This document shows, in pieces, positions 1 through 10,004 of a stretch of 10,004 bases of DNA (its first letter is position 1; every line of letters starts with the position of its first letter). Origin of the DNA: an uncultured Bacilli bacterium (GTDB lineage Bacteria; Bacillota_I; Bacilli_A; RF39; UBA660); contig CANQFI010000060.1 in assembly GCA_947598455.1 (NCBI GenBank), positions 1-10,004 of the forward strand, read 5' to 3'. Both the position numbers and the translations under genes were made by a program. Below the pieces are notes generated by a model. It saw only the letters and a list, made by a program, of their open reading frames with translations, did not search any database and had not been told where the DNA came from.

Positions 1-935
1 GCATCTTTAATATTAATTTTATTTTCCTCTTTATTTCCAATTTTAAAAACGTCTAATCTAACATTATCAGCATTGAAACTATCAACATTATTTACGGAAA
101 TAATACCGTCGGCAGTATAAATTCCAAAATCACTATTTAAAGTTATATTTCCACCATCAATAATAATATTCTTATGTTGAGAATAACCAGCATGAATAGA
201 AGGATTTCTTTCATCAATTGCAGTTAAATTTATATTTCCACCACTAATAATTACTCCATCTGGATAATCACTTTCTCCTGATATTCCAGTAACCATAATA
301 GCAGAACCATTAGATTTTATATCAACATTACCTCCAGTAATATTTACTTGTCTTAAAGCATAAATTCCTTTAGACTTTGTAAAATTACTAGCATCAATAT
401 TAAGATTACCACCACTTATAGTAACAACGCCATCAACAATAAAACCTCCATTACTGTTAATAGTACCTGATTCTATATTTAGATTATATGGATAATGAAT
501 AGTATCACCATTATTTCCTCCATTTGTTGTATAATAAGTTTTTATGTTAAGATTTAATTTACCATTATTTATACTTTTAAATGTTAATGTACCACCTTTT
601 TCACCTGTTCCATAAAAGACACTTTCTTTATCTGCTGTTAAATTATTAACTCCTTCAAAGATAACAGTTATATTATCTGATTTTAAAAATTTAATACAAG
701 GATTTACTGAATCTGTATCAGTCATTTCAAAAGTAGTATCTTCTAAAGTTAGTATTTTAGTTTCATTATCCCATGACCAGCCTTCTTCTTCTAATTTATT
801 TTCAGTTTGATGATTAGTTAAATCTAATGTTTGAGTAACCTTATTTTTAGCATAAACATAATTAACATTAATACATAATAAAAATAAAGCTAAATAAAAA
901 CCTAACATTAACTTATTCATTGTTGTTTTAAACAT
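1..935 (-). CDS. Secreted beta-helix surface protein, copy A (3' end outside window)
   Basis: This is an intact reading frame of 311 visible codons that runs off the window edge, so the C-terminus is missing. The ATG at 935 follows a purine-rich ribosome site (AGAAAGAAGTG). Residues 1-29 form a signal peptide: a basic start, a hydrophobic core and probable cleavage after VYA. A GWSWDNETKILTLE segment (about 53-66) matches a module common in Bacillota surface proteins. It is followed by rungs carrying ISGGN, ITGGN, ISGGN and IDGGN, typical of a right-handed parallel beta-helix of the pectate-lyase or carbohydrate-binding type. The gene is a tandem paralogue of the gene at 1265-2560 and aligns with it throughout, with closest agreement in the promoter, leader and first 30 codons. 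By analogy, the missing part should hold a FIVAR-like helical domain and a sorting signal. Catalytic residues are not recognisable. An adhesin or glycan-binding role is inference. Confidence 0.85.
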   Translation of the reverse strand, partial: MFKTTMNKLMLGFYLALFLLCINVNYVYAKNKVTQTLDLTNHQTENKLEEEGWSWDNETKILTLEDTTFEMTDTDSVNPCIKFLKSDNITVIFEGVNNLTADKESVFYGTGEKGGTLTFKSINNGKLNLNIKTYYTTNGGNNGDTIHYPYNLNIESGTINSNGGFIVDGVVTISGGNLNIDASNFTKSKGIYALRQVNITGGNVDIKSNGSAIMVTGISGESDYPDGVIISGGNINLTAIDERNPSIHAGYSQHKNIIIDGGNITLNSDFGIYTADGIISVNNVDSFNADNVRLDVFKIGNKEENKINIKD

Positions 936-965: not shown

Positions 966-985
966 TTGACAAGTACTCTTGTCAA
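966..985 (-). promoter_or_regulatory. Perfect palindrome at the mRNA 5' end of copy A
   Basis: Read on the minus strand it is TTGACAAG-AGTA-CTTGTCAA, with 8-bp perfect arms and a 4-nt loop. It begins about 9 bases after the -10 box, so it would be the very 5' end of the transcript. A similar element sits in the same place at 2591-2611 before the paralogue. It could be a transcript-stabilising 5' hairpin or an operator overlapping the start site. The sequence alone does not decide between them. Confidence 0.6.
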
Positions 986-993
986 TTAAAAAT

Positions 994-1024
994 ATTCTAC
1001 CCCCCCCCGGTCCACATTTGTCAA
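994..1024 (-). promoter_or_regulatory. Promoter of copy A with poly-G spacer (19 bp)
   Basis: On the minus strand a perfect -35 TTGACA (1024-1019) and a -10 TAGAAT (999-994) are separated by 19 bp, of which the last nine are G. The 10 bases after the -35 begin AATGT, as in the paralogue. Nineteen bp exceeds the usual 17-bp optimum, so this copy is predicted to be weaker than the one at 2620-2649. The -35 also forms the right half of a small inverted repeat, TGTCA-TTAT-TGACA (1019-1032), which the paralogue lacks. Confidence 0.7.
1000..1008 (-). repeat. G9 homopolymer (C9 on plus strand)
   Basis: Nine consecutive C on the plus strand lie inside the promoter spacer of copy A. A G/C run of this length is very unlikely by chance at about 25% G+C. 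The only comparable run in the window is the G8 at the same position before the paralogue. It is a candidate slippage tract for phase variation. Confidence 0.9.
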
Positions 1025-1210: not shown

Positions 1211-1251
1211 TAAAAAATAGGTAATCTTTGATTACCTATAAGATTACCTAT
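1211..1251 (-). terminator. Rho-independent terminator after surface protein B, with duplicated arm
   Basis: On the minus strand, shortly after the stop of the gene at 1265-2560, the order is TAGGTAATC-TTA-TAGGTAATC-AAA-GATTACCTA followed by T6. The second and third elements form a 9-10 bp stem with a 3-nt loop at 1217-1239. The first element (1242-1250) is an exact extra copy of the 5' arm and could pair with the same 3' arm, so two mutually exclusive hairpins are possible. Confidence 0.8.
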
Positions 1252-1264
1252 AAAAAACTATATT

Positions 1265-2560
1265 TTAATAATTAACTGATTCTTTTTTATAAAGAAACAA
1301 AGTATATCCAAAACCAATAATACTTAATGTTAAATATATAACATATTTAAAAATACCATCATATGTATTAGGATTATCAGTATTATCAGGTTCTTGTGGT
1401 TGTGGTTCATTTTTTAATATTAAATTTGCAATAGCATTATTAATATTTGAAGCCATAGCATCAACTTCACTTTGTTCTAATATATTCTTATCTCTTTCTA
1501 CTAAAGAAATTGCACCTATAACTGCGCTAAAATCTTCATAATCATCTTTATTTAAAGCATTAGCTTTAGCAATTGCCGCATCTACTTCGCTATAATCAGC
1601 TTCTGAACATTTTATGTAATTACCTTCCATACCATAAACTTTAAGTACATCTTCTCTAACATTAGAAACATCTGCACTATCAACATTATTTATTATAATA
1701 TGGCCTTTACGAACATAAATACCATATTCACTACTAATAGTTATGTTTCCACCATTAATAATTACATTCTTTGTATAATTACCTTCTGGAGTAGAATCAG
1801 AACGACCGGCATAAATTCCTTGTCCTTCTTTTGAATCAAGAACCACATTTCCACCACTTATTATTACGCCGTCGGCTTTATCTGTTTCTTTTAATGTTCC
1901 TGGTACCATAATTGCAGTACCATTTAAAGCAACATTAAGATTTCCTCCTGTAATATTAACTTGTTGTATAGCATAAATTCCTGAATCGTCAGAATCTGTA
2001 TCCCAGCTTTCAAGGTTAAAAGTTCCACCATTCATAGTAAATGTATCATCAACCATAATTGTACCTTTACTGTTGATAGTACCAGATTCTATTACTAAAT
2101 TATGTGGATAACCAATAGTTGTACCATTGTTACCACGATAAGTTTTCTTTAACACTTTATAGCTTAGATTTAATACAGCATTTTCTTCACCTTTTAATGT
2201 AAGTGTACCATCACCAGCTGTATAAACACCATATAAACTATAACCTTTGTCAGCTATCAAATTATTTTCACCTTTGAAAATTATAGTTATATCCTCTCCT
2301 CTATTAAATTTAATACAATCATTTACGTTATCTTCTGTATCTGTAATTTCAATAGTTATGCCATCTAAAGTTAGTGTTTTAGTATCGTTATCCCATGACC
2401 AGCCTTCATCTTCTAATTTATTTACACTACCTTCTTGAGTTGTTAAGTCTAATGTTTGAGTAACCTTATCTTTTGCATAAACATAATTAATATTAATACA
2501 TAATAAAAATAATGTTAAAGAAAAAACCAACATTAACTTATTCATTGTTGTTTTAAACAT
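1265..2560 (-). CDS. Secreted beta-helix surface protein, copy B, with FIVAR-like domain and NPNTY sorting signal
   Basis: The protein is 431 residues if translation starts at the ATG at 2560, which follows the ribosome site GGAAGAAAGAAGTG; an in-frame ATG at 2611 lies in the 5' hairpin and is rejected. Residues 1-29 are a signal peptide (cleavage after VYA), and about 53-66 carry the GWSWDNDTKTLTLD module. Residues 90-315 are a right-handed beta-helix with GG-turn rungs (NGG 177, TGG 204, SGG 235, NGG 269). Residues about 319-383 are a helical FIVAR-like repeat (DYSEVDAAIAKANALNKDDY). A proline-rich linker leads to NPNTYDGI (396-403), a membrane helix (405-423) and a short lysine-containing tail. 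The C-terminus resembles a sortase signal of the NPxTx kind, so cell-wall anchoring is likely but not certain. The gene is preceded by a G8 promoter. A binding or adhesin role is inferred, and no enzyme active site is visible. Confidence 0.88.
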   Translation of the reverse strand: MFKTTMNKLMLVFSLTLFLLCININYVYAKDKVTQTLDLTTQEGSVNKLEDEGWSWDNDTKTLTLDGITIEITDTEDNVNDCIKFNRGEDITIIFKGENNLIADKGYSLYGVYTAGDGTLTLKGEENAVLNLSYKVLKKTYRGNNGTTIGYPHNLVIESGTINSKGTIMVDDTFTMNGGTFNLESWDTDSDDSGIYAIQQVNITGGNLNVALNGTAIMVPGTLKETDKADGVIISGGNVVLDSKEGQGIYAGRSDSTPEGNYTKNVIINGGNITISSEYGIYVRKGHIIINNVDSADVSNVREDVLKVYGMEGNYIKCSEADYSEVDAAIAKANALNKDDYEDFSAVIGAISLVERDKNILEQSEVDAMASNINNAIANLILKNEPQPQEPDNTDNPNTYDGIFKYVIYLTLSIIGFGYTLFLYKKESVNY

Positions 2561-2590: not shown

Positions 2591-2611
2591 TCGACAAGTA
2601 CCCCCTGTCAA
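2591..2611 (-). promoter_or_regulatory. Hairpin at the mRNA 5' end of copy B
   Basis: On the minus strand the arms TTGACAGG and CTTGTCGA flank GGGTA. Relative to copy A the DNA palindrome is broken at two positions, but both mismatches become G-U wobbles in RNA, so all eight base pairs survive. That pattern favours an RNA hairpin at the transcript start over a symmetric protein operator. Confidence 0.55.
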
Positions 2612-2619
2612 TGGTAAAT

Positions 2620-2649
2620 ATTCTACCCCCCCCGAACAACATTTGTCAA
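2620..2649 (-). promoter_or_regulatory. Promoter of copy B with poly-G spacer (18 bp)
   Basis: On the minus strand a -35 TTGACA (2649-2644) and a -10 TAGAAT (2625-2620) are separated by 18 bp. The spacer is ten mixed bases followed by G8 directly abutting the -10. The architecture matches the promoter at 994-1024 apart from one fewer G and a different 5-base block before the tract. One contraction would give the 17-bp optimum. Confidence 0.72.
2626..2633 (-). repeat. G8 homopolymer (C8 on plus strand)
   Basis: Eight consecutive C on the plus strand lie between the -35 and -10 boxes of copy B. It is the counterpart of the G9 tract at 1000-1008 and a candidate slippage site. Confidence 0.9.
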
Positions 2650-2772: not shown

Positions 2773-2807
2773 TAAAAACCTTGTTTCCATATCCGAGAAA
2801 CAAGGTT
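2773..2807 (-). terminator. Strong rho-independent terminator after the XRE-family gene
   Basis: On the minus strand a perfect 11-bp stem, AACCTTGTTTC / GAAACAAGGTT, with a 9-nt loop is followed by a T5 tract, about 20 bases after the stop of the regulator gene. It separates that unit from the surface-protein genes. Confidence 0.9.
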
Positions 2808-8928: not shown

Positions 8929-9531
8929 TTAGTTTGAATTTATTAATTTTAATCTTAGTACAACTCGGTATTTTGTATTACTACTATTACAAGTGAATAA
9001 AGATAAATCCCATTCACCATCGTCTAAAAGATCGGGATTTTTTTCTGAAATATTTTCTTTCTTTATTACTTCATATTGAAATTTATGTCCATTTAAATCA
9101 GTAAATATTACCTGGTCTTTTTCTTGGAGCTGTTGTATTTTCTTAAAATGAGATAACGAATTATGAGCGATTATTACGGCATTATTTCGATAAATTGAAC
9201 CCTTATATAATACTGGAGCTTTATTTAAATTACTTACTGTATATTCGTCTAGAACTGGTAATTCAATATCAATCTTTGATATTGAAATAATACCAATATA
9301 GTTTTTTCCTTTAATATTTATTTTGGGCATTTCTTTATCTGGATTATCTAGGTAATCTTCTGATTCTTCATTTGTTCTTTCTTGTAAAATGTTTTCTATT
9401 TCTTCTAATGCCTCTTTAGAGTTCTTACCTGATGTATAATCAAAAATTATATTATATATACATAAAACAAACGCTGTTAATATTAATATAATACCTGACA
9501 TTTTTAAAATAAAAGGTATTTTATTTTTCAC
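8929..9531 (-). CDS. Sortase (class B/D-like)
   Basis: This 200-residue protein has an N-terminal membrane anchor (about 9-30), a polar acidic stalk (31-70) and a sortase barrel. Catalytic residues are His123 in IIAHNSLSHF, Cys181 in LSLFTC and Arg189 in KYRVVLRL. Entry strands IGIISISKIDIELPVLD (79-95) and APVLYKGSIYRNNAVI are typical. The enzyme cleaves a surface-protein sorting motif between Thr and Gly and joins it to a nucleophile outside the membrane. It lacks the second, C-terminal membrane helix of class C pilin polymerases, so class B or D fits better; the class is inferred. The start is GTG at 9531, overlapping the end of the LPNTG gene by 11 bases with no good ribosome site, so translation is probably coupled. 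The LPNTG protein is the obvious substrate. Confidence 0.92.
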   Translation of the reverse strand: MKNKIPFILKMSGIILILTAFVLCIYNIIFDYTSGKNSKEALEEIENILQERTNEESEDYLDNPDKEMPKINIKGKNYIGIISISKIDIELPVLDEYTVSNLNKAPVLYKGSIYRNNAVIIAHNSLSHFKKIQQLQEKDQVIFTDLNGHKFQYEVIKKENISEKNPDLLDDGEWDLSLFTCNSSNTKYRVVLRLKLINSN

Positions 9532-10004
9532 AAGTATCTTGCTTTCGTTTGATTATAATTCCAATTGCTAAAAGAATTAAACCTGTTCCAAATAGAATTG
9601 GTACTGGCCACCATAAAAGACCAGTGTTTGGTAGCTTAAAATCATAGGTATTAGTTATTGTAAAAATGTTATTTTCATAATTAATATCAACTGCATAATT
9701 ATTACTAACACCTATTTCTTTTACTTCCCATTTATATGTGTCATCTAAATCGTTCCATTGATATGACCAACCATTGCTACTATCTAATTTAACTTCATCA
9801 TATAATTCTGAATCTTTATATAATTGAACAGTTATATATTGTGGACGGTATTTTTCTTTACCTTTGTCATTCCAAACTTTTATAACTTTTTTATCCACTA
9901 TTTTATTTAGATCTATATCATAAGCATATTTAGGATATATTTTAACTTCATATTCCCATTCATCTTGAATAGTCATATTAGGAATACTAATTAAAATGCT
10001 TTGT
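9521..10004 (-). CDS. LPNTG-anchored pilin/Cna_B surface protein (5' end outside window)
   Basis: The frame is open to the window edge, giving 160 visible codons; an ATG at 9976 is internal. The first visible part ends a pilin domain with WEYEVKIYPK (9929-9958), matching the pilin motif WxxxVxVYPK whose Lys accepts the sortase link during fibre assembly. A Cna_B domain follows, from KKVIKVWND to FTITNTY, with the expected isopeptide trio: Lys in KVW, Glu in VKE and Asn in ITNT. LPNTG (9620-9634) is followed by a membrane helix and the basic tail KRKQDTCEK. The protein should be wall-anchored and may polymerise. It overlaps the downstream sortase gene by 11 bases. The motif and domain order are seen; polymerisation is inferred. 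Confidence 0.9.
   Translation of the reverse strand, partial: QSILISIPNMTIQDEWEYEVKIYPKYAYDIDLNKIVDKKVIKVWNDKGKEKYRPQYITVQLYKDSELYDEVKLDSSNGWSYQWNDLDDTYKWEVKEIGVSNNYAVDINYENNIFTITNTYDFKLPNTGLLWWPVPILFGTGLILLAIGIIIKRKQDTCEK

Follow-up and report, generated by a model that had tools for sequence, protein, structure and literature searches.

The stretch of DNA analysed here, a 10,004-nt contig region from an uncultured Bacilli bacterium (hereafter the window), carries two copies of a putative sigma-70-type promoter whose −35/−10 spacer ends in a run of Gs touching the −10 box, each copy standing before one of two tandem paralogous genes, A and B, that probably encode cell-surface proteins. Poly-G spacer promoters acting as a slippage switch for surface proteins are the most probable explanation of the observations. 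Slippage during replication would add or remove Gs and thereby lengthen or shorten the spacer in single-base steps around 17–19 nt, the change in spacing would alter the transcription rate of the surface-protein gene behind it, and the tandem genes, which look like separate transcription units, would switch independently. At the sequence level, this reading is supported by the anatomy of the element, its repetition in the genome of a relative, the enrichment of secretion and anchoring signals in the predicted products and a tract that changes faster than its flanks; from these we infer that the promoters are active, that expression depends on spacing and that switching occurs inside a single population.

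Both promoters of the window have the homopolymer between the −35 and −10 boxes (Table 1). The element described in the first-pass annotation, G8 with an 18-nt spacer at 2620..2649, was recovered on the minus strand together with its second copy (G9, 19 nt). Its full pattern, TTGACA-N10-G8-N(0,1)-TAGAAT, matches twice in the window and in 0 of 200 dinucleotide shuffles, in agreement with the claim of that annotation that a chance G run is unlikely. Box pairs without the G tract match three times (two of them overlapping), against a shuffle mean of 1.22 and at least three matches in 30 of the 200 shuffles; it is the G tract that carries the significance, since box pairs alone are not unusual in an AT-rich window. 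The promoter, 5′UTR and leader of copies A and B align closely, with different 5-nt blocks, and 58–59 nt separate the end of the −10 box from the ATG in both genes. AATGT, noted in the first-pass annotation as the recurring start of the spacer, is not diagnostic, as many other sequences stand there in relatives. By their sequence, the window elements are putative poly-G spacer promoters built like those of Neisseria meningitidis porA and Treponema pallidum tp0126.

Table 1 Predicted promoters, genes and RNA structures of the window
Feature	Positions	Strand	Description
Putative promoter B (tract copy B)	2620..2649	minus	−35 TTGACA 2649-2644; 10-nt block 2643-2634, AATGTTGTTC; G8 2633-2626; −10 TAGAAT 2625-2620; spacer 18 nt
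Putative promoter A (sister copy)	994..1024	minus	−35 TTGACA 1024-1019; 10-nt block 1018-1009, AATGTGGACC; G9 1008-1000; −10 TAGAAT 999-994; spacer 19 nt
Gene B	1265..2560	minus	431 aa; signal-like N-terminus, putative beta-helix domain, helical part, tail of NPNTYDG, hydrophobic stretch and KK
Gene A	1..935	minus	first 311 aa in the window, continuing past its left edge; present in full length as P0006 (called with 457 aa)
Sortase-domain gene	8929..9531	minus	PF04203, E 2.4e-17
5′UTR hairpin, copy B	2591..2611	minus	8 bp including G-U pairs, 5-nt loop; −9.2 kcal/mol, z −4.25
5′UTR hairpin, copy A	966..985	minus	8 bp, 4-nt loop; −8.5 kcal/mol, z −3.25
Terminator-like stem	1217..1239	minus	after gene B, before promoter A
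Terminator-like stem	2777..2807	minus	upstream of promoter B

According to the published reports, porA is highly expressed with 11 Gs, 2-fold down with 10 and 13-fold down with 9 (PMC3639595), the poly-G spacer of tp0126 has a 17-nt optimum, and tprE, G and J of T. pallidum are transcribed only with eight or fewer Gs (PMC7864442). Because of the spacing rules known from tp0126 and porA, copy B (G8, 18 nt) is predicted to be stronger than copy A (G9, 19 nt). The window shares with porA a poly-G run between the −35 and −10 boxes, the length of which sets expression stepwise for porA (PMC3639595), a surface-protein gene, as A and B probably are; but porA is a single gene of a Gram-negative pathogen, whereas the window element recurs in low-GC Bacilli in front of genes whose products have sortase-like tails. 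T. pallidum likewise has poly-G spacers before several surface genes of one genome; unlike in the window, the tract of its tprL overlaps the −10 region and leaves the spacing unaltered, and the available part of that report describes no recurring cassette of −35 box plus tract such as the one found here (PMC7864442). Bifidobacterium breve offers a gut commensal whose sortase-dependent surface structures are controlled by G-tract slippage, although it belongs to another phylum and the tracts studied lie inside coding sequence and act by frameshift; the authors of that study also mention further G-tracts in promoter spacers (PMC9187656).

The closest relative found is G001, a rabbit-gut ‘uncultured Bacilli’ assembly with a Zn-peptidase 91% identical at the protein level. 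Nine DNA blocks are shared between the window and the G001 stretch, five of them (2372, 1525, 1162, 597, and 590 nt) 83–88% identical and the other four (813, 527, 115, and 58 nt) 72–83% identical. Protein B has one match in G001 (80%), with its own G8 promoter at the orthologous place (L108); the window has two copies. Genome-wide, G001 contains 22 tracts of at least seven Gs (16 G8 and 6 G9), and 18 of these lie directly before a −10-like box on the coding strand with a TTG-type −35 upstream, 17 having been found by regular expression and the last one (the third site of L116) by eye. The −35 is TTGACA in 13 of the 18 sites and a weaker TTG-type box in the rest. A hydrophobic N-terminus is present in 14 of the 17 scored genes behind these sites versus 87 of 220 background ORFs taken from 12 stretches of 20 kb (p 6.5e-4), and a sortase-like tail (P-x-T-x-D/G/N, hydrophobic stretch, and K/R) in 10/17 versus 2/220 (p 9.5e-12), p-values that are optimistic because tandem paralogues are not independent. 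About 18 G001 genes thus appear to stand behind the same design, most of them predicted to encode secreted or membrane proteins. The first-pass annotation had proposed a genome search for the element, in which a family of secreted proteins downstream would support a phase-variable regulon; the genes listed downstream of it in G001 point that way, with a similar picture in several further relatives. Three of the other four G001 tracts adjoin long open frames and one lies near a contig end; the tracts next to open frames raise the possibility of translational switching as a further mechanism in this lineage. At these three loci (L119, L120 and L123, with G8 or G9), the frame is unbroken through the tract in one and broken there in two, and one of the frames looks acyltransferase-like by eye.

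Proteins A and B are paralogues (177/322 residues identical, 55%), and their signal-like N-terminus and sortase-like tail make them probable cell-surface proteins. For gene B, the ATG at 2560 was taken as start instead of the TTG at 2611 given in the ORF list. The structural model of protein B (mean pLDDT 85.4) has an extended strand region, which we read as a putative beta-helix, a helical C-terminal part and a low-confidence terminal helix. Its best fold match in the PDB was 4phb (Cthe_2159, polysaccharide-lyase-like; E 4.4e-3, prob 1.00, TM 0.32/0.51, 14% identity), nothing being found there at E ≤ 0.001. Protein B thus resembles the carbohydrate-binding beta-helix proteins of the Cthe_2159/PF14262 type in its best fold match, but differs in that a PF14262 profile search of proteins A and B returned no match; four homologues (P0045, P0070, P0110, and P0114) do carry a precomputed PF14262 assignment. 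On the basis of the model and the sequences, a carbohydrate-binding surface protein would be the likeliest reading of the switched product. The sortase-domain gene of the same window encodes a candidate anchoring enzyme, which we link to A and B by inference. The window also contains a Cna_B protein with KLPNTG (9521-10003). A C-terminal motif that departs from canonical LPxTG and combines P[DN]TxD with a hydrophobic stretch and K/R recurs in the window (1265-1400) and at G001 loci, and tails of this type may belong to a distinct sortase.

Length polymorphism, anticipated in the first-pass annotation, was found among near-identical promoter copies in relatives and, for copy A, when two of its records were compared. 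Tract length differs in 28 of 60 same-genome promoter pairs whose flanks, compared over up to 45 nt, have no more than 2 mismatches (5/5 in G034, 8/21 in G039, 1/1 in G032, 13/30 in G003, 0/2 in G004, and 1/1 in G006), pairs that share sites and are not independent. This count covers 15 sites of G003 (24 matches including overlaps are known) and four of the five CATAAT-type sites of G004, and merges two identical Peptoniphilus raoultii sites, both G11 (L043 and L060), which bring it to 29/62 if kept separate. Three of the nine genomes compared (G001, G007, and G072) had no near-identical pairs. When the flanks are identical, the tract still differs in 7 of 24 pairs. One promoter family of G034 ranges from G9 to G14, all four copies examined in G004 are G11, and the G032 pair, over 128 columns, has 0 substitutions and 3 indels, all of them in homopolymers and including G12/G11. 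As judged from these alignments, in relatives the tract changes in length faster than its flanks. The two neighbouring copies of the window had been regarded as the product of independent slippage; their lengths do differ, but G8 beside G9 is weak evidence of slippage, and was rejected as proof of it, since the two copies arose by an old duplication (55% identity) and are unlike in their 5-nt blocks as well.

The two records of copy A are the window itself and the gene of P0006, which is identical to copy A at 311/311 shared residues. The contig encoding P0006 has 8324 bp; being shorter than the window, it is a different contig. P0006 is annotated as reading through the tract (MWTGGGRIFLIDK...), whereas in copy A of the window the upstream and downstream halves of this reading lie in different frames with a stop between them. 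A G8 in the otherwise same sequence, where the window has G9, explains the reading frame of P0006. Copy A would therefore exist as both G9 and G8, in one pair of records in which the G8 is read from the protein and an assembly error is possible. None of the 13 copy-A homologues listed has an N-terminal glycine run like that of P0006, so that the allele evidence stays at one pair. Homopolymer errors of assembly or sequencing, in which case the tract would be real and its length differences spurious, deserve attention since the relatives are mostly metagenome assemblies, with many copies at contig ends, and the B. breve study cautions that G-tract lengths in databases may be incorrect (PMC9187656); we nevertheless consider this explanation quite improbable, as the tract recurs at the orthologous position in G001 and the 9–14 range within one family is wide for 1-base errors. 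The P0006 annotation would also suit a translational switch, with the tract placed within an upstream-extended frame and slippage frameshifting the protein, as would the G001 tracts adjoining long open frames and the fact that, for each gene of the window, one frame crosses the tract without a stop and continues into the gene. This is very improbable for A and B: an intact signal-like sequence already follows the ATG at 935 or 2560, both the predicted transcription start and the −10 box are downstream of the tract, and the copy B frame with an upstream ATG hits a stop before the gene.

Among 72 sites from 13 genomes (a set omitting the single G049 match and overlapping duplicates), spacers measure 14–21 nt, 54 of them 17–19 nt, a peak inside the imposed range since the pattern admitted only 14–23 nt; the tracts are 7–14 Gs long and touch the −10 box in 60/72 sites. 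As tracts lengthen from genome to genome, the non-G portion of the spacer shrinks (rho −0.74 for 13 genome medians of a deduplicated subset, medians that are not independent by descent), the total spacer stays at 17–20 nt, near 18 nt, in 12 of the 13 genome medians, and 144 of 20000 permutations reached so low a variance in total spacer length. Such compensation between long tracts and short non-G parts is expected if selection holds the total spacing, and spacing is probably what counts. An unlikely alternative takes the G tract for a fixed, sequence-specific promoter part, either a site for a regulator or a spacer that is stiff or contacts sigma; it would be the mark of a surface-protein regulon, and its variation in length would be incidental. 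With this would agree that no C-oriented promoter tract was seen among the 22 of G001, that the tract adjoins the −10 box in most sites and that G001 tracts have 8 or 9 Gs only, but the range of 7–14 over the 72 sites, that of 9–14 within one G034 family and the spacer compensation fit a length ruler better. Against a slippage switch count the restriction of G001 to G8 and G9, less variation than free slippage might produce, and the uniform G11 of the four G004 copies; the carrier tracts outside the strict TTGACA cassette, the two backward-control matches and the G029 orthologue without the element, all described below, also weigh against it.

Beyond G001, a scan of genome_contigs for TTGACAAATGT-N3-6-G6-N0-8-TANNAT yielded 41 matches in 40 stretches, compared with a crude uniform-base expectation of ~4. 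By title, 15 of the stretches are Bacilli, 13, by our reading, are Clostridia or related Firmicutes and 12 are mixed, including Treponema, Microcystis, and Synergistaceae. The cassette pattern occurs in 14 of 117 relatives (G001 and G002 included), with one match of the backward control in all 117 (G064), and a looser pattern occurs in 9/9 genomes reached via the genome_contigs scan, with its backward control matching once (G006). Tracts of at least eight Gs, counted in 12 genomes, number 0, 0, 0, 0, and 1 in five relatives without the pattern and 4 to 33 in seven carriers. The share of them at the strict TTGACA cassette is 4/4 in G012, 8/9 in G034, 13/22 in G001, 13/23 in G039, 16/33 in G072, 3/7 in G020, and 3/15 in G036, G001 being the genome in which all tracts outside the strict cassette were inspected. 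G029 keeps an orthologue of gene B (76%) but has no run of six Gs in the stretch examined and no such promoter upstream of the gene; a gene found without tract and promoter suggests that the cassette is gained or lost as a unit. This orthologue (L149) contains one in-frame TGA where copy B has Trp.

The cassette was also seen in named Firmicutes, namely P. raoultii (L008, L018, and L028), where close copies have G9 and G11, and Lachnospiraceae bacterium A2 (L010 and L016). In G072 (L193), tandem surface-protein genes with NPDTxD-like tails each have their own poly-G promoter. A C stands just before 21 of the 22 G001 tracts, including the three by open frames; in G039 and G072 it is mostly a T. 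As to a phage origin, viral_contigs gave 41 stretches, by a rough estimate no more than chance would give. That the instability stems from lost mismatch repair was rejected as far as MutS is concerned: MutS_I matches in 106 of the 117 relatives (105 over the cut-off) and in 12 of the 14 that carry the pattern, G049 and G060 being without match.

Slippage-type phase variation has been studied mostly in Gram-negative pathogens and spirochaetes. Our search of the open-licence PMC literature retrieved work on promoters switched by poly-G tracts for Neisseria and Treponema and on slippage of G-tracts for Bifidobacterium; none of the titles and abstract openings retrieved mentioned poly-G promoter switching for this Bacilli group. 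The proposed mechanism would thus be of a known kind, and its regulon in this lineage one that this search did not find in print. If true, uncultured gut Bacilli would apply slippage to many surface proteins whose tails are sortase-like, some of them possibly glycan-binding, and one strain could show many surface states to its host and phages. The cassette is readily recognised, which would allow its state to be determined from deep metagenomes that are already available.

The two terminator-like stems suggest that each gene forms its own transcription unit. Tandem paralogues behind near-identical promoters might also evoke an invertible promoter or a recombination switch, a possibility we regard as barely conceivable, given that no inverted repeats were found around B and only one AT-rich pair, 81% complementary, around A. 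An 8-bp hairpin that was absent from the first-pass annotation directly follows the predicted transcription start in the two window genes and in two genes of G001. In these four sequences, 32/32 pair cells are standard and one pair changes from A-U to G-C on both sides; three further pairs alternate between G-U and Watson-Crick, in what is a small number of sequences. The G-U pairs suggest an RNA element rather than a DNA operator, and our guess is that the hairpin serves as a 5′ mRNA stabiliser. A broader picture, possible and offered here tentatively, is that this gut Bacilli lineage has a genome-wide combinatorial switchboard in which the cassette (−35, short block, G8–G14, −10) stands before up to 18 genes per genome, mostly for secreted or membrane proteins, that flicker independently; the G run on the coding strand at the −10 box would then be more than a ruler and may itself tune promoter melting or sigma contact, and the 5′-terminal mRNA hairpin would be a second control layer in the gene family of the window. 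As a separate observation, G034 (L154-L159) shows an inverted repeat formed, with slight variations, by the −10 region TATCCTAGTCA and a downstream TGACTAGGATA, with ~14 nt between them.
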